Shown in pieces: positions 56,780-64,000 of a DNA stretch of 64,000 nucleotides; position 1 is the first letter of the stretch, and every line of letters begins with the position of its first letter. The DNA comes from Geodermatophilus telluris (GTDB lineage Bacteria; Actinomycetota; Actinomycetes; Mycobacteriales; Geodermatophilaceae), in NCBI RefSeq assembly GCF_900102745.1, contig NZ_FMZF01000001.1, positions 124,001 to 188,000 of the forward strand. The letters are read 5' to 3'. The notes under the pieces are model-generated. The model saw only the letters and a list, made by a program, of their open reading frames with translations. It searched no databases and had not been told where the DNA came from. A program made the translations under genes and the position numbers.

Positions 56780-56915
56780 GGTCGACGACGCCGAGGGCCG
56801 GTGACGCACGGCCGGGACGCGTGATCCGCGGGGCCACGGGACGCCGACGCCCCGTCCGCGTGATGCGCACCACACTGTGTAGGTCGTCTCAGACGTCTTG
56901 CGCCACCATGACGCG

Positions 56916-57383
56916 GTGACCGCCAACGACGCGACGCCTCCGGCCACGGGTCTGCCCGCCGAGCTGTTCACCACGATCGACCACGTCGGCATCGCCGTCC
57001 CCGACCTGGACGAGGCGATCGCCTTCTACGCGCAGGCCTTCGGCGTGCGGTCGGTGCACGAGGAGACCAACGAGGAGCAGGGCGTCCGCGAGGCCATGCT
57101 CGCCGTCGGTACCGGGGACACCCGCATCCAGCTGCTCGCCCCGCTGACCCCCGACTCCACGATCGCGAAGTTCATCGGCCGCTCGGGCCCCGGCCTGCAG
57201 CAGCTCGCCTTCCGGGTCGACGACGTCGAGGCGGTCAGCGCCACCCTGCGCGAGCGCGGCCTGCGGCTGCTCTACGACACCCCCCGGCGGGGGACGTCGG
57301 ACAGCCGGGTCAACTTCGTCCACCCCAAGGACGCCGGCGGGGTCCTCGTCGAGCTCGTCGAGCCCGCGCGCACCGCCCACTGA
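56916..57383 (+). CDS. Methylmalonyl-CoA/ethylmalonyl-CoA epimerase
   Basis: A 155-aa glyoxalase-fold enzyme that swaps (2R) and (2S) methylmalonyl-CoA, and in some bacteria ethylmalonyl-CoA. TIDHVGIAVPDLDEAIAFY contains the first metal-ligand His, QQLAFRVDDVEAVSATL and FVHPKDAGGVLVELVEPA the later ligand region (a His and Glu). GTG at 56916 is preferred, 6 nt after CACCAT; TTG at 56898 is an alternative that adds six residues. Divergent from thiolase-meaB. The adjacent carboxylating Ccr makes ethylmalonyl-CoA a likely extra substrate. Confidence 0.92.
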   Translation: MTANDATPPATGLPAELFTTIDHVGIAVPDLDEAIAFYAQAFGVRSVHEETNEEQGVREAMLAVGTGDTRIQLLAPLTPDSTIAKFIGRSGPGLQQLAFRVDDVEAVSATLRERGLRLLYDTPRRGTSDSRVNFVHPKDAGGVLVELVEPARTAH

Positions 57384-57388
57384 GACCC

Positions 57389-57416
57389 GGGCGCCGGGAT
57401 CCGGTCCCCGGCGCCG
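57389..57416. terminator. Hairpin after the epimerase gene
   Basis: GGCGCCGGG and CCCGGCGCC arms (within about 57389-57416) around ATCCGGTC form a strong 9-bp stem in the 111-bp gap before ccr. Confidence 0.5.
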
Positions 57417-57423
57417 GGGCGTC

Positions 57424-57441
57424 GGTTACCAGTCGGTAACC
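57424..57441. promoter_or_regulatory. Operator-like inverted repeat before ccr
   Basis: GGTTACC-AGTC-GGTAACC is a perfect 7-bp inverted repeat with a 4-bp spacer, 54 bp before the ccr start. It is AT-richer than its surroundings and has the size typical of TetR-family operators. A repressor of ccr is the simplest reading; none is encoded next to it. Confidence 0.5.
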
Positions 57442-57494
57442 TGCCGCCGCACGGCCCCTCCGCCCTCCGAGCCGACGAAGACCCGGGAGACACC

Positions 57495-58826
57495 GTGGAC
57501 GCCATCAGGGACGCCATCCTCGCCGACCAGCTCACCGACATCGCCGGCCTGCCGGTGCCCGAGAGCTACCGGGCGGTGCTGGTGCGCAAGGACGAGCAGG
57601 ACATGTTCGCCGGGATGCCCACCAAGGACAAGGACCCGCGCAAGTCGCTGCACGTCGAGGAGGTGCCCACCCCCGAGCTCGGCCCGGGCGAGGCGATCGT
57701 CGCCGTGATGGCCTCCTCGGTGAACTACAACACCGTCTGGACGTCGATCTTCGAGCCGGTGTCCACCTTCGGGTTCCTCGAGCGCTACGGCCGGCAGAAC
57801 GACCTCACCAGGCGGCACGACCTCCCGTACCACGTGGTCGGCTCCGACCTGGCCGGCGTGGTGCTGCGGGTGGGCCCCGGGGTGAACAAGTGGAAGCCCG
57901 GCGACGAGGTGGTGGCGCACTGCCTGTCGGTGGAGCTGGAGGACCCGGCCGGCCACGACGACACGATGATGGACCCCCAGCAGCGCATCTGGGGCTTCGA
58001 GACCAACTTCGGCGGCCTCGCCGAGCTCGCCCTGGTCAAGTCCAACCAGCTGATGCCCAAGCCGGCGCACCTGTCCTGGGAGGAGGCCGCCGCACCCGGG
58101 CTGGTCAACTCCACCGCCTACCGGCAGCTGGTCTCCCGCAACGGCGCGGGGATGAAGCAGGGCGACGTCGTCCTCATCTGGGGCGCCTCCGGCGGGCTGG
58201 GGTCCTACGCCACCCAGATGGCGCTCAACGGCGGCGCCATCCCCGTCTGCGTGGTGAGCAGCCCGGAGAAGGCCGACATCGTGCGGCGGATGGGTGCCGA
58301 GCTGGTCATCGACCGCTCCGCGGAGGGCTACCGGTTCTGGAAGGACGAGGACACCCAGGACCCGAAGGAGTGGCAGCGGTTCGGCAAGCGGATCCGCGAG
58401 CTGACCGGCGGCGACGACGTCGACATCGTCTTCGAGCACCCCGGCCGGGAGACCTTCGGCGCCAGCGTCTACGTCGCCAAGAAGGGCGGCACGATCGTCA
58501 CCTGCGCCTCCACCAGCGGCTACATGCACTCCTACGACAACCGCTACCTCTGGATGAACCTCAAGCGGATCGTCGGGTCGCACTTCGCCAACTACAAGGA
58601 GGCGTGGGAGGCCAACCGGCTCATCGACCGCGGCCTGATCCACCCGACCCTGTCCAAGACCTACGCCATGGACGAGGTCGGCCAGGCCGCCTGCGACGTG
58701 AAGAACAACGCCCACCAGGGCAAGGTCGGCGTGCTCACCCTCGCCCCCGCCGAGGGGCTCGGGGTCAAGGACGCCGAGAAGCGGGAGAAGCACCTCGCCG
58801 CGATCAACCGCTTCCGCGGCGTGTGA
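57495..58826 (+). CDS. ccr: Crotonyl-CoA carboxylase/reductase
   Basis: Ccr (443 aa) reductively carboxylates crotonyl-CoA to ethylmalonyl-CoA with NADPH and CO2, the key step of the ethylmalonyl-CoA pathway and a source of extender units. The medium-chain dehydrogenase fold has NADPH motif VLIWGASGGLGSYATQMALN. The four CO2-holding residues of the family are all present: Asn77 in SSVNYNTVW, Phe168-Glu169 in WGFETNFGG and His363 in GSHFANYKEA (equivalents of Asn81, Phe170, Glu171, His365 in Kitasatospora). So it should carboxylate, not just reduce. GTG at 57495 has GGGAG 6 nt upstream. Normal length. Confidence 0.96.
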   Translation: MDAIRDAILADQLTDIAGLPVPESYRAVLVRKDEQDMFAGMPTKDKDPRKSLHVEEVPTPELGPGEAIVAVMASSVNYNTVWTSIFEPVSTFGFLERYGRQNDLTRRHDLPYHVVGSDLAGVVLRVGPGVNKWKPGDEVVAHCLSVELEDPAGHDDTMMDPQQRIWGFETNFGGLAELALVKSNQLMPKPAHLSWEEAAAPGLVNSTAYRQLVSRNGAGMKQGDVVLIWGASGGLGSYATQMALNGGAIPVCVVSSPEKADIVRRMGAELVIDRSAEGYRFWKDEDTQDPKEWQRFGKRIRELTGGDDVDIVFEHPGRETFGASVYVAKKGGTIVTCASTSGYMHSYDNRYLWMNLKRIVGSHFANYKEAWEANRLIDRGLIHPTLSKTYAMDEVGQAACDVKNNAHQGKVGVLTLAPAEGLGVKDAEKREKHLAAINRFRGV

Positions 58827-58928: not shown

Positions 58929-58934
58929 GAGGAT
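58929..58934 (+). promoter_or_regulatory. Predicted -10 box of the DivIVA-like gene (leaderless)
   Basis: GAGGAT lies 7 nt before ATG 58942. It overlaps the earlier in-frame ATG at 58933, which argues for 58942 as the real start. Confidence 0.4.
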
Positions 58935-58941
58935 GGACCGC

Positions 58942-60318
58942 ATGACCGATCCCCGCCGCGACCTGCTGCCGATGCGCGAGGCCCAGCACTCGTTCGACGT
59001 GGTGCTGCGGGGCTACGACCGCCACCAGGTGGCCGAGACCATCGAGCGCCTCGAGGCCGACATCCGCGTCGCGCTGGCCGACCGGGACGCCGCGGCCAGC
59101 CGCTCGACCGACCTGGCCGGGCAGCTCTCGGCCATGCACGCCGAGATCGAACAGCTGCGCCGCAAGGCCGCCAACGCCGGCCCGGCCACCTTCGAGAACA
59201 TGAGCGAGCGCATCTCGCACATGCTGCGGCTGGCCGAGGAGGAGGCCGCCGACATCCGCGGCCAGGCCGAGCAGGAGGCCCGCGCGCTGCGCGAGCACAC
59301 CGCTGCCGAGGAGCGGGCGATGCTCGAGCGCCAGGCGGCCGGTCGCGCCGAGGTCGAGCACGTCCTCGCCGAGGCGCGGCAGAACGCCGAGCAGATCGCC
59401 AGCAAGGCGCAGATCCGCGCCGACGAGCTGGTGGCCAAGGCGCAGGAGAAGGTCGCCCGGCTCGACGCCGAGTCGCAGGCCCGCCGCGCCAAGGTCGAGG
59501 AGGACTTCGAGATCGCCCAGCGCGCCCGCCGCGCCGACGCCGCCCGGGCCGAGGAGGAGCGCGAGCGCGCGTCGGTCCAGGCCGCCCGGGAGCGGGTCGC
59601 CGCGGCCGAGGCGCACGCGGCCCGCGTCGTCGGCGAGGCGGAGGCGTCCGCCGCCGCCGTCCGGCGGGTGCGCGACGAGCTCACCGCGCGCCTCGCCGAG
59701 GCCCGTCGCGTGCTCTCCGCGCTGCCCGACCTCGGCGACCGCCCGCAGCCGGGTGGCCGGCCGGCCGCGCCGCCGCAGGGCACCCCGCAGGAGCCGCCGG
59801 CGGCGCGCCGTGCCGCCGAGGGCCCCGGCGACGGCCGGACCGCGCCCGCGCCGACCGGGCCCCAGACCGCCATCCAACCCGTGGCGGGGCCGCCGACCGG
59901 CATGCAGCGGGTCGTGGGCCCGCAGACCGGTGGTCAGCCGGCGCCGCCGCGCCCGGCCGCGCAGCCGCGGCCGGCGGAGGGCCCGGCCGGGGGCGGGGAG
60001 GCCGCGGCCGCCCGCCAGCCCACCCGGCCGCCGGCGCCGCCCACCCAGCCGGCCGTGCAGCCCCCCGCGCAGCAGGAGTCGCCGGCCGCGCAGACCCAGC
60101 AGATCCGGCCGGTGTCCGCACCGGACCAGGACGGCGCCGCCTCCGGAGGGCAGGGCCGGCACGCCGGGCCCCCCACCGGGTCGGGGCGCGCGGCGACCGC
60201 CGAGCAGGCGGCCGTGGACCCCGCCTCCGACGGACCCTCGACGAAGGTGCAGCCCGCCGTCGGCCCGGGCTCCCCGTCCGACACCGGCGGCCAGCCCGCC
60301 GTCCCCGGGCACCGCTGA
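58942..60318 (+). CDS. DivIVA/FilP-like coiled-coil protein
   Basis: A 458-aa cytoskeletal-type protein. A DivIVA-like head (HSFDVVLRGYDRHQVAETIE, ~residues 16-37) leads into a long Ala/Glu/Arg coiled coil (~35-255, e.g. MSERISHMLRLAEEEAADIR, EKVARLDAESQARRAKVEED). A disordered Pro/Gln/Ala tail (~265-458) with short repeats (GPQTAIQPV, GPPTGMQRV, GPQTGGQPA) follows. Streptomyces FilP and Scy, which organise tip growth, have this build and, as I recall, lie next to the epimerase-thiolase-meaB genes, as here. That positional match supports a polar-growth or cell-shape role. No membrane segment. Ortholog assignment is inference. Confidence 0.82.
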   Translation: MTDPRRDLLPMREAQHSFDVVLRGYDRHQVAETIERLEADIRVALADRDAAASRSTDLAGQLSAMHAEIEQLRRKAANAGPATFENMSERISHMLRLAEEEAADIRGQAEQEARALREHTAAEERAMLERQAAGRAEVEHVLAEARQNAEQIASKAQIRADELVAKAQEKVARLDAESQARRAKVEEDFEIAQRARRADAARAEEERERASVQAARERVAAAEAHAARVVGEAEASAAAVRRVRDELTARLAEARRVLSALPDLGDRPQPGGRPAAPPQGTPQEPPAARRAAEGPGDGRTAPAPTGPQTAIQPVAGPPTGMQRVVGPQTGGQPAPPRPAAQPRPAEGPAGGGEAAAARQPTRPPAPPTQPAVQPPAQQESPAAQTQQIRPVSAPDQDGAASGGQGRHAGPPTGSGRAATAEQAAVDPASDGPSTKVQPAVGPGSPSDTGGQPAVPGHR

Positions 60319-60364: not shown

Positions 60365-61219
60365 GTGACGGCGACACGGCTGGCGGCGGCCGGCCGGCTC
60401 CTGGCGGTGACCGCGCTGACGGCGGCCGCGCTGGCGTGCCCGGCGCCGGCGGCCCGCGCCGCCGAGGGCGGCCTGCTGCGGCTGGCGCACCTCTCCCCCG
60501 ACACCCCGGCCGTCGACGTCTACGTCGACCCGGTCGCCGCCCCGGGCGACGAGCGGGTCGTCCCCGCCGTCGCCTACGGCACGGTGTCGGACTACCAGGA
60601 CGTCCCGCCCGGGAGCTACGCGGTCAGCGTGCGGCCGGTCGGTGCCGACCCGGCGACCCCGCCGGTGCTGTCCGCCACCGTGCAGGTCGACGCCGACAGC
60701 GCCCGCACCGTGGCCGGCGTCGGCACGTTCGCCGACCTCGGCCTCGAGGTGCTCGACGACGACCTGACGCCGCCGGCCGCCGGGAGCGCCCGTCTGCGGG
60801 TCGTCGCCGCGGCCGCCGGGGCGCCGACCCTCGACGTCGCCGTCCCCGGCGGCCCGGTGCTGGCCACCGGCCTGGCCTTCACCGACACGAGCGCCTACCT
60901 CGACGTCCCGGCCGGCGCGACGGCCCTCACGGTGACCCCGGCCGGCGGCCCGGCCACCGAGCTGCCCGTGGAGCTGACCGCGGGCTCGATCCACAGCGTG
61001 CTGGTGCTCGACCGCCCCGGCGGCGGGCTGGCCGTGCGGACGGTCCTGGACGCCGCCGGTCCCGGCGTCGTCCCGGCCGGTGGCGTGGAGGCGGGCGCGG
61101 GCGGCACCGCCGACGACGGCCTGCCGCTGCCCGCGGTGGCCGGCGCGGTGCTCGTCTGGGCGGCGACGCGGACGGGTGCCGGCCGCCGCCGGCACGGGGC
61201 GCGGCCCGGGCCACGGTGA
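60365..61219 (+). CDS. DUF4397-domain secreted protein with possible sortase signal
   Basis: A 284-aa exported protein. The signal peptide (RLLAVTALTAAALACPAPAARA, cleavage near residue 34) precedes two DUF4397 units (LRLAHLSPDTPAVDVYVDPV, then ARLRVVAAAAGAPTLDVAVP), beta-sandwich modules often found on bacterial surfaces. The C-terminus has a sorting-signal layout: GLPLPAVAGAVLVWAA followed by a basic tail (RTGAGRRRHGARPGPR), with LPLPA in place of LPxTG. GTG at 60365 follows GGAGGA. Its stop overlaps the sortase start by 4 bp, the strongest hint that it is the sortase substrate. Function unknown. Confidence 0.82.
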   Translation: MTATRLAAAGRLLAVTALTAAALACPAPAARAAEGGLLRLAHLSPDTPAVDVYVDPVAAPGDERVVPAVAYGTVSDYQDVPPGSYAVSVRPVGADPATPPVLSATVQVDADSARTVAGVGTFADLGLEVLDDDLTPPAAGSARLRVVAAAAGAPTLDVAVPGGPVLATGLAFTDTSAYLDVPAGATALTVTPAGGPATELPVELTAGSIHSVLVLDRPGGGLAVRTVLDAAGPGVVPAGGVEAGAGGTADDGLPLPAVAGAVLVWAATRTGAGRRRHGARPGPR

Positions 61220-61842
61220 GCGGGCCGCGCGCCCGCGGCCCGCGCCTCGGGACCCCGGGCGCGCTCCGGCTGCTCCTCGCCGTCGTCGCCGCCGGAGCCG
61301 GCACGGTCGCCCTGCTGGACCCCGGCGGGTCCGCGCCGGCCGCCGCGCGGGCTGTGGAGACGCCGGCACCCGTGGTCGCGGTCGAGCAGGCCCTCGCTCA
61401 CTCCGCGCCCCCCAGCCGCCTCCGGGTGCCGGCGATCGGCGTGGACACCGCGCTGGCCGACCTCGGCCTGGACGCGGCGGGCGCCCTGGCGGCGCCTGCC
61501 GACCCCGACCGGGCCGGGTGGTTCGCCCGCGGCACCGTGCCCGGCGACGTCGGCCCGGCCGTGCTCGCCGGGCACGTGGACTCCGTGGACGGCCCCGCGG
61601 TGTTCGCCCGGCTGCGCGAGCTCGTCCCGGGCGACGAGGTGCTCGTCGACCGCGCCGACGGGACCACCGCCCGCTTCCGGGTCACCGACGTCGAGCGGCA
61701 CCGGAAGGACGCCTTCCCGACCGAGGCGGTCTACGGCCCCACCGCCGATCCCCAGCTGCGGCTGGTCACCTGCGGCGGCGACTTCGACCGCTCGGTTCGC
61801 AGCTACGAGGACAACGTGGTGGTCTTCGCGCAGATGGCGTAG
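61216..61842 (+). CDS. Class F sortase
   Basis: A 208-aa membrane transpeptidase. One N-terminal helix (LRLLLAVVAAGAGTVALL) anchors it; the sortase barrel starts at ~70 (RLRVPAIGVDTALADLGLDA). The catalytic triad is visible: His120 in VLAGHVDSVDG, Cys186 in LVTCGGDFD and Arg195 in RSVRSYEDNVVVF. These segments mark the actinobacterial class F group, whose physiological substrates are poorly known. Sortases cut a C-terminal motif and join the protein to the cell wall or another protein. The 4-bp overlap with the DUF4397 gene suggests a dedicated pair. Confidence 0.93.
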   Translation: MSGPRARGPRLGTPGALRLLLAVVAAGAGTVALLDPGGSAPAAARAVETPAPVVAVEQALAHSAPPSRLRVPAIGVDTALADLGLDAAGALAAPADPDRAGWFARGTVPGDVGPAVLAGHVDSVDGPAVFARLRELVPGDEVLVDRADGTTARFRVTDVERHRKDAFPTEAVYGPTADPQLRLVTCGGDFDRSVRSYEDNVVVFAQMA

Positions 61843-62230: not shown

Positions 62231-64000
62231 TCAGTGCCGGGAGTGGTCCCGGAACCCGCGGCCGGTCTTGCGGCCGAGGTACCCGGCGGTGACCAGGTGC
62301 TCGAGCAGCGGCGCGGGCGCGAAGCCGGGCTCGCGGAACTCGGTGTAGAGCTCGCGCTCGATCGCCAGCGACACGTCCAGGCCGACGACGTCGAGCAGCT
62401 CGAAGGGGCCCATCGGGTAGCCGCAGCCCACCTTCATCGCCGCGTCGATGTCGTCGGCGGTCGCGTAGTGCGCCTCGAGCATCTTCACCGCGTCGTTGAG
62501 GTAGGGGAACAGCAGGGCGTTGACGATGAACCCGGCGCGGTCCGAGCACGACACCGCGTGCTTGCCGAGCTGCGCGCAGACGGCGTGCGCGGTGGCCGCG
62601 ACGTCGGGCGCGGTGGCGATGGTGCTGACCACCTCGACCAGCTTCATCACCGGCGCCGGGTTGAAGAAGTGCAGGCCGACCACGTCGCCGGGGCGCTCGC
62701 TGGCCTTGGCGCACTCGATGACCGGCAGGCTCGACGTCGTCGTCGCGAGGACCGCGCCGGGCTTGGCGATCTCGCCCAGCGCGGCGAACAGCGCCTGCTT
62801 GACCGGCAGCGACTCGACGACGGCCTCGATCACCAGGTCGCGGTCGGCGAACTCGTCCAGGGACGTCGTCCCGCGGACCCGGCCCAGCACCTCGTCGCGG
62901 CCGGCCTCGTCGAGCCGGCCGCGGGCGACCTGCTTGTCCAGGGAGCGGCGCAGCGCGGTGAGGACCGCCTCGACCTTCTCCGGGGAGCGCGCCTGGAACA
63001 GCGTGTCGAAGCCGCCCTTGGCGACCACCTCGATGATGCCGGTGGCCATGGTCCCCGAGCCGACGACGCCCACCGTGGCGACCGGGCGGGCGCCCTCGGC
63101 GGCGCCGCCGGGGACGGGGGTCTGCTCGTCGGGCACGACCTCGGCGGAGTCGCGGCCGGCGTAGGTGTAGAAGCCGCGGCCGGACTTCCGGCCCAGCAGC
63201 CCCGCCGTCATCATCTGCTTGATGATCGGGCTGGGCGCGTGCAGCCGGTCGCGCGACTGCTTGTACATCGTGTCGAGGATCTCGTAGGCGGTGTCGATGC
63301 CGATGAGGTCCATGAGCGCCAGCGGGCCCATCGGCAGGCCGCAGCCCAGCCGCATGGCCGCGTCGAGGTCCTCGCGGCTGGCGTAGCGGTTCTCGTACAT
63401 GGCCACCGCGTGGTTGAGGTAGCCGAACAGCAGCGCGTTGGCGATGAAGCCGGCCTTGTCGCCGATGGTGACGTCGACCTTGCCCAGCCGGGCGGCCAGC
63501 GCCTCGACGTCCTCGATGACCGACGGCTCGGTGACGACGGTCCGCACCACCTCGACCAGTTTCATGACCGGCGCCGGGTTGAAGAAGTGCATCCCGATGA
63601 CCTTGCTCGGCCGGCCGGTGGCCACCGACAGCTCGGTCACCGACAGGCTGGAGGTGTTGGTCGCGAGGATGGTGTCCGGCGGGCAGATCTTGTCCAGCTG
63701 CGCGAACAGCTCGGTCTTGAGCTCCATCCGCTCGGGGACGGCCTCGACCACGAGCTCGGCCTGCGCCAGGTCCTCGAGCGCCGTGCTGAACCGGATCCGC
63801 CCGAGGATCGCGTCCCGCTCGCCGGCCTCCAGCTTGCCGCGCGCCACCGCGCGCCCGGTGGAGTGCTCGACGTGCGCGCGGCCCCGGGCCAGCGCCTCGT
63901 CGCCGATCTCCACGGCGGTCACCGACAGGCCCGCGCGGGCCAGCACCTCGGCGATGCCGGCACCCATGGTGCCCAGCCCCACCACGCCGACCTCGGTCAG
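62231..64000 (-). CDS. 3-hydroxyacyl(butyryl)-CoA dehydrogenase, tandem two-module (N-terminus beyond window)
   Basis: 589 residues are visible; the start codon lies outside the right edge. It oxidises 3-hydroxybutyryl-CoA to acetoacetyl-CoA, or the reverse, with NAD(P). It is two complete dehydrogenase modules in a row. Module 1 has VGLGTMGAGIAEVLARAG, TNTSSLSVTELSVATGRPSK, GMHFFNPAPVMKLVEVV and a C-terminal half with GLPMGPLALMDLIGIDTAYE. Module 2 repeats this from VGVVGSGTMATGIIEVVAKG through TTTSSLPVIECAKASERPGD and GLHFFNPAPVMKLVEVV to CGYPMGPFELLDVVGLDVSL. This ~590-residue tandem form is usual in actinobacteria (Streptomyces, from recall). It feeds the ethylmalonyl-CoA route together with thiolase and Ccr. 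Confidence 0.93.
   Translation of the reverse strand: MTEVGVVGLGTMGAGIAEVLARAGLSVTAVEIGDEALARGRAHVEHSTGRAVARGKLEAGERDAILGRIRFSTALEDLAQAELVVEAVPERMELKTELFAQLDKICPPDTILATNTSSLSVTELSVATGRPSKVIGMHFFNPAPVMKLVEVVRTVVTEPSVIEDVEALAARLGKVDVTIGDKAGFIANALLFGYLNHAVAMYENRYASREDLDAAMRLGCGLPMGPLALMDLIGIDTAYEILDTMYKQSRDRLHAPSPIIKQMMTAGLLGRKSGRGFYTYAGRDSAEVVPDEQTPVPGGAAEGARPVATVGVVGSGTMATGIIEVVAKGGFDTLFQARSPEKVEAVLTALRRSLDKQVARGRLDEAGRDEVLGRVRGTTSLDEFADRDLVIEAVVESLPVKQALFAALGEIAKPGAVLATTTSSLPVIECAKASERPGDVVGLHFFNPAPVMKLVEVVSTIATAPDVAATAHAVCAQLGKHAVSCSDRAGFIVNALLFPYLNDAVKMLEAHYATADDIDAAMKVGCGYPMGPFELLDVVGLDVSLAIERELYTEFREPGFAPAPLLEHLVTAGYLGRKTGRGFRDHSRH

Follow-up and report, generated by a model that had tools for sequence, protein, structure and literature searches.

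The window, by which we mean the whole 64,000-nucleotide stretch of Geodermatophilus telluris DNA that was analyzed, contains a DUF4397 gene followed directly by a class F sortase gene. The DUF4397 gene (60365-61219, forward strand) has a GTG start and encodes 284 amino acids, read here as a putative secreted class F sortase substrate with tandem DUF4397 domains and a C-terminal sorting tail. Its product matches PF14344 over two stretches with 127.9 bits, above the gathering cut-off of 30.6 bits. The sortase gene (61216-61842, forward strand) also has a GTG start and encodes 208 amino acids. Its product scores 196.8 bits against the class F model NF033748, over the curated cut-off of 166 bits, and by score it does not differ from this class. 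The two open reading frames share four bases (GTGA), as an earlier, sequence-only reading of this DNA had stated. Overlaps of 4 bp between genes are ordinary in bacteria.

The same reading had proposed that the two genes form a dedicated pair. Named genomes were scanned for loci encoding a DUF4397 relative, and the best 80 of 220 loci were used; their genera include Geodermatophilus, Blastococcus, Modestobacter, Klenkia, Micromonospora, Amorphoplanes (Actinoplanes) and others. A class F sortase was present in 74 of these 80 loci, 72 times split from the DUF4397 protein and twice fused; this conservation of the pair is more than chance. Five of the six loci that lack a class F sortase stop at a contig end no more than 140 bases from the match, and the sixth (L268) does not. 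The loci of the DUF4397 family, called family loci below, cover part of the matches (30 loci and 40 regions).

Upstream of the pair, a DivIVA-like gene (58933-60318, forward strand) stops 47 bp before the DUF4397 gene; its PF05103 score of 23.5 bits is below the cut-off of 28. Because a DivIVA-like relative lies upstream on the same strand in 40 of the best 80 of 220 named loci, this gene and the pair may belong to one transcription unit. The wider flanks (56898-58826, forward strand; 62231-63985, reverse strand) hold genes for a glyoxalase-fold (epimerase-like) protein, a zinc-type alcohol dehydrogenase-like protein, which we take to be crotonyl-CoA reductase-like, and a 3-hydroxyacyl-CoA dehydrogenase. 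Relatives of the dehydrogenase were seen in 46 and of the reductase-like gene in 14 of the same 80 loci.

The C-terminal tail of the DUF4397 protein

The AlphaFold model of residues 34-284 of the DUF4397 protein (46 sequences) is almost all-beta, with a mean pLDDT of 87.6. Its best structural matches in the PDB are the extracellular domains of PepT1 and PepT2, with a TM-score on the query of up to 0.57; these are tandem Ig-like domains. A phmmer search of the PDB with this protein gave no match at E up to 1. The tail of the model is poorly ordered from about the motif described below, with block means of pLDDT of 43-63 from model residue 201.

The C-terminus of the protein reads ...VVPAGGVEAGAGGTADDGLPLPAVAGAVLVWAATRTGAGRRRHGARPGPR. 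A short hydrophobic stretch of about 15 residues, which begins with LPLPA (61121-61135), is followed by an Arg-rich C-terminal tail (61121-61216 for both parts). The sorting-signal layout described in the sequence-only reading is thus present, and it was also correct that the protein has no canonical LPxTG. By this pentapeptide, the tail is not an LPXTG wall-sorting signal.

LPLPA had been proposed as the recognition motif, with an alignment of DUF4397 C-termini as the way to check it. Ninety distinct closed DUF4397 tails, chosen from the family and named loci without regard to the motif, contained LPLPA once, in the window's own protein, and LPxTG never. When 16 family proteins were aligned, LPLPA fell in variable columns. 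The proposal did not survive this comparison, and a conserved block was found just upstream instead, stopping 3 residues before LPLPA.

This block, P-x-GGV-[EDA]-[TA]-G-x-GG-x-A in general form, corresponds to P237-A-G-G-V-E-A-G-A-G-G-T-A249 in the window (61073-61111) and is our proposed sorting signal. The segment spanning V241, A243 and G244 reads PAGGVEAGAGGTA. P237, G239, V241, G244 and G246 are invariant in the 16 proteins, and G240, E242, G247 and A249 are conserved in at least 90%. The core, G[GAS][VI]x[TA]GxG, occurs in 83 of the 90 tails and in the DUF4397 frame of 79 of the 80 named loci (best 80 of 220); the only one of the 80 where it was not found is L271, a metagenome contig. 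Most Micromonospora relatives carry GGVDTGAGG. In 85 motif-bearing tails, the hydrophobic stretch begins 3-16 residues (median 8) after the motif. These alignments point to a glycine-rich, GVxTG-type tag as the probable sorting label, rather than LPXTG or LPLPA.

A signal of this type is already known by name, as the GVDTG sorting domain of NCBIfam (GVDTG_CTERM, NF058571). The core of the window protein, GVEAG (61082-61096), is equivalent to GVDTG, and residues 236-268 align to the model in the same position and with the same layout, although the score is below the curated cut-off of 29 (23 bits, 22 in the genome search). GVEAGAGG is followed by the hydrophobic and basic segments (61121-61216) and by a class F sortase gene overlapping by 4 bp, which fits the GVDTG layout, a criterion that is our own reading of the NF058571 model and not the model's own text. 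The suggestion that this pair could define a new motif was therefore right in that the signal appears to be of a non-LPXTG type, and wrong in naming LPLPA and in that the NCBIfam model already exists. What this analysis adds is the tie to class F sortases with Asn at the catalytic-Arg position, the breadth beyond NF058571, the fusions and the substrates without a membrane helix. In our literature search, whose scope took in little of the subscription literature, no paper was found that states a GVDTG-type signal for class F sortases or that combines a class F sortase with DUF4397.

Class F sortases and their neighbors in Actinomycetota

The association was examined in a sample of 119 genomes drawn evenly from the phylum. 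Class F sortase matches over the NF033748 cut-off numbered 41, and 28 GVDTG_CTERM matches at an E value of 0.001 or better were found in 15 genomes. The motif end of the NF058571 model (start at position 5 or earlier) was covered by 23 of the 28 matches. Of these 23, 22 had an over-cut-off class F sortase no more than 1.2 kb away, and the remaining match lies 275 bases from the end of its contig. None of the five matches starting at model position 10 or later was near such a sortase. Class E sortase matches were found in 94 of the 119 genomes, 20 of which had one over the cut-off; by eye, none of the 28 GVDTG_CTERM matches was near a class E sortase among the matches listed.

Since NF058571 may have been built from neighbors of class F sortases, in which case the adjacency test is not independent, these neighbors were also read directly. 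By pattern and eye, 39 of the 41 over-cut-off class F sortases, the window's included, have a motif-bearing neighbor or fused partner; no motif neighbor was found in the available flanking DNA of the other two (L123 and L131). Exceptions in placement are L136 (motif downstream), L118 (upstream, in a frame that overlaps), L121 (upstream by about 0.9 kb) and L098 (fused). Loose forms were counted, namely GVRGG in L121, GAGTGVG in L127, GGVAAGERP in L133 and VNTGSP in L106 and L153, and those of L127 and L133 are weaker. At class F loci below the cut-off, the motif was present in 14 of 25, several times in a looser form (VNTGSP, RVDAGSAG), and absent in 11. These loci represent 27 of the 34 sub-cut-off matches of at least 64 bits; one more is L002 of the window's own genome and six were left out. 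Also left out of the counts were class F matches below 64 bits, many of which are class E, and L146, a duplicate of L105.

At E up to 20, an 18-residue HMM of the motif alone, made from 34 family segments, gave 19 matches, of which the top six were class F neighbors with the motif and most of the others were noise. Because this HMM had too little power, regular expressions and shuffled sequences were used. Of 85 tail-anchored ORFs at class F loci, 30 carried the pattern [VIM].[TA]G.G, against a mean of 1.9 and at most 5 after shuffling; the family loci had it in 32 of 71 (shuffled 3.4, maximum 10) and 30 class E loci in none of 20. A looser pattern showed a weaker contrast, with 49/85 at class F loci against a shuffled mean of 15.1, 37/71 in family loci against 23.2 (maximum 34) and 0/20 at class E loci against 0.5. 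The block is specifically associated with class F sortases. LPXTG was absent from all 85 tail-anchored ORFs at class F loci, as it was from the 90 DUF4397 tails, and its use by the class F sortases examined here was not seen.

The proteins that carry the motif are diverse. Among 51 motif-bearing neighbors, Pfam identified 14 DUF4397 proteins, four ice-binding-like, two CHRD and one AMIN-like protein, and weakly two more families with one member each; the rest had no Pfam match at E 0.001. Their alignment has a mean column identity of 13% and the consensus PxGGVxTGxGGxA; a single column, that of the Gly in [TA]G, is invariant. Val was found in 34 of 51 and Thr or Ala in 47 of 51 at their positions, figures that arise partly by construction because the choice of motifs favored these letters and required the Gly. 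Of these 51 proteins, 25 are matched by NF058571 with an E value of 0.01 or better, and therefore the signal seems broader than this model.

Five neighbors (L092, L125, L130, L132 and L137) have no C-terminal membrane helix and stop no more than about 10 residues past the core. L130, L132 and L137 have a lipoprotein-like N-terminus by eye, and in the three of the five that were scanned singly no Pfam family passed its cut-off. All five lie directly upstream of class F sortases and, by eye, consist of two similar halves followed by GxxTGGGG and a few residues.

DUF4397 protein and sortase are fused in one open frame in five distinct cases: L019, L029 (the same protein as L240, from Trujillonella endophytica), L086, L234 (recorded as Geodermatophilus obscurus DSM 43162) and the distant L098. 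By eye, the order in all except L019 is DUF4397, motif, hydrophobic segment, basic segment, hydrophobic segment and sortase. This order would fit a membrane hairpin; L019 fits it less well. Any individual fusion may be a sequencing error.

The window's own genome encodes three PF04203 sortases. The class F model matches each of them, two above its cut-off and one with 119.9 bits; the class E search gave one weak match (E 3.6e-6). Each of the three adjoins a protein with a sorting-like tail. The second pair includes another DUF4397 protein (L002), in which PSGVPGGTAG has Gly in place of [TA]. The third neighbor (L006/L089), with GSVAAGDG, is excalibur-like, although its Excalibur score of 18.3 bits is below the cut-off of 22. 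The two best GVDTG_CTERM matches in this 4.8-Mb genome, both below the cut-off, adjoin class F sortases. Actinoplanes auranticolor has four class F-like sortases, two of them over the cut-off, and each has a motif-bearing neighbor (GPATGGGG, GGVATGEGG, GGVPSGSGG and SNIATGTGG).

Asparagine at the usual catalytic Arg position of the sortase

The model of sortase residues 62-208 has a mean pLDDT of 92.4, and solved structures from sortase classes A, C, D and E match it; phmmer found no match in the PDB at E up to 0.001. By homology, His120 (61573-61575, forward strand) and Cys186 (61771-61773, forward strand; in LVTCGG) are catalytic. The usual position of the catalytic Arg is occupied by Asn200 (61813-61815, forward strand). 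All three residues are invariant in 44 aligned sortases. In the phylum sample, with the window and duplicates included, 66 of 70 aligned sortases have Asn at this position and four have Arg. The accessible text of PMC6998099 reports Asn for Arg in the class F sortases of Actinobacteria, with reference to a previous analysis by the same authors.

A motif neighbor was found at none of the four Arg-type loci compared with 52 of 62 Asn-type loci (Fisher p = 0.0014; 53 with L098), where the four Arg-type enzymes (L109, L110, L111 and L156) are not independent because they belong to one family of genomes. Upstream of two of these four sortases are ORFs that end in PIPGLL[DE]. Based on the sequences compared, the use of GVxTG-like signals by the Asn-type class F group appears to be widespread in Actinomycetota.

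The structure 5UUS scored 24.2 bits against the profile of the Asn-type group, level with sortases of other classes (about 23 bits). We take it to be the sortase F of Cutibacterium (Propionibacterium) acnes; its Cys is at chain position 195 (compare the C195G mutant). The Arg at the Asn position in this structure was placed by eye in a second segment that, with 1.6 bits, is very weak. The accessible text of PMC8361268 labels 5UUS class F. The C. acnes enzyme is likewise called class F (PMC7451113, PMC13251363, accessible parts), and it transfers LPQTGE peptides according to the accessible text of PMC7451113. The window sortase has Asn200 in place of the catalytic Arg of this LPXTG-cleaving type. 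Our search of the literature found no other class F enzyme that had been studied in vitro.

A signal other than LPXTG is known from class E. The Streptomyces coelicolor enzyme SrtE1 uses LAXTG, which keeps T-G at the scissile bond (PMC5148588, accessible part). Class E sortases are actinobacterial with a non-LPXTG signal, as is proposed for the window sortase, but they form another class, with, by eye, no GVDTG matches near those listed.

Proposed sorting reaction and alternatives

We consider it very probable that the pair is a substrate and its enzyme, that the class F sortase reads the conserved block and not LPLPA, and that cleavage by Cys186 between A243 and G244 leads to display on the wall. 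The DUF4397 protein would be exported and then retained in the membrane through its short hydrophobic tail. The adjacent sortase would recognize P-x-G-G-V-E-A-G-x-G-G (in general form, P-x-G-G-V-x-[TA]-G-x-G-G), and Cys186 would cut between Ala243 and Gly244, a site we infer by analogy with LPXT^G. The cut protein would be passed to a cell-wall acceptor, with its two DUF4397 domains displayed on the wall. In its favor are the block's conservation where LPLPA varies, its adjacency to class F sortases in the 119 genomes, the shuffled controls, the one invariant Gly column among diverse neighbors, the natural fusions, and the neighbors in the window's own genome and in A. auranticolor. Several points speak against this mechanism: C. 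acnes sortase F uses LPQTGE, the window's NF058571 score is below the cut-off, some class F loci have no motif neighbor, several counted motifs are loose forms, the looser pattern contrasts less with shuffles, NF058571 may not be independent of adjacency, the hydrophobic stretch is short, and a sortase mutant has no phenotype. The latter is an Actinoplanes missouriensis strain mutated in four class F sortases, which in the accessible text of PMC13251363 had no phenotype in the conditions tested.

If LPLPA, at the membrane edge, were instead read by the sortase as a degenerate LPxxA/G signal, its place at the opening of the hydrophobic stretch, with the Arg-rich tail behind it, would make sense, and LP..[AG] does occur somewhere in 18 of 85 motif-bearing tails. 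This is highly improbable given the variable columns and the tail counts, 1/90 for LPLPA and 0/90 for LPxTG. LP..[GA] at class F loci was also at chance (3/85, shuffled mean 3.3), and in family loci (3/71) it was below the shuffled 5.0. LPLPA was rejected as the signal for its single occurrence in 90 tails, its chance frequency at class F loci and its variable columns. Another view is that the block is just a flexible Gly-rich linker before the membrane anchor and that the sortase acts on other proteins or on LPXTG elsewhere. Gly-rich linkers are common, and the model shows little order in the tail (block means 43-63). A mere linker would not account for position-specific conservation across otherwise different proteins, the shuffled controls, the adjacency to class F and not to class E sortases among the matches listed, or the block at the extreme C-terminus of five proteins with no membrane helix after it. 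We regard it as very unlikely.

It is also unlikely, although less so, that the block is recognized by a sortase that acts mainly as a protease or self-processing enzyme, releasing the ectodomain and not attaching it to the wall. The replacement of the catalytic Arg by Asn in this group, itself described as a class F feature (PMC6998099, accessible part), would be in line with such an activity, as would the lack of phenotype of the quadruple srtF mutant (PMC13251363, accessible part). Fusions of substrate and sortase would permit processing in cis. However, the sortase fold and the His and Cys, invariant in 44 sequences, are kept, and most substrates have a tail laid out like a wall-sorting signal.

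Beyond recognition of the block by the adjacent sortase, the Asn-type class F enzymes could form a separate one-sortase-one-substrate system that reads P-x-G-G-V-x-[TA]-G-x-G-G, in which the helix is optional and loss of the Arg goes with the change of signal. We put this forward tentatively, with slightly less than even confidence. Each enzyme would be encoded with, and sometimes fused to, its own substrate, and the scissile bond would have conserved residues before and after it. The signal would also occur on putative N-terminal lipoproteins, which in that case would be attached to the membrane at one end and to the wall at the other.

The accessible parts of PMC13251363 and PMC6998099 call the role or function of class F sortases unknown. 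If the GVxTG-type tag is their signal, lists of class F substrates could be drawn up from genomes. A concrete prediction would also follow for the srtF strains of A. missouriensis, concerning AMIS_11010 and AMIS_36440. According to the accessible text of PMC13251363, the neighbors of srtF1 and srtF4 were set aside in that study as having no known pentapeptide, with the remark that they may be substrates; in A. auranticolor, a form of the motif is present beside all four class F-like sortases. For orthogonal protein ligation, an enzyme that has Asn in place of Arg and reads a Gly-Val signal would be useful.

One further DUF4397 protein, encoded in L084, has GGVETGAGG. No sortase was found in the 3.9 kb examined there, and this protein is possibly sorted in trans.
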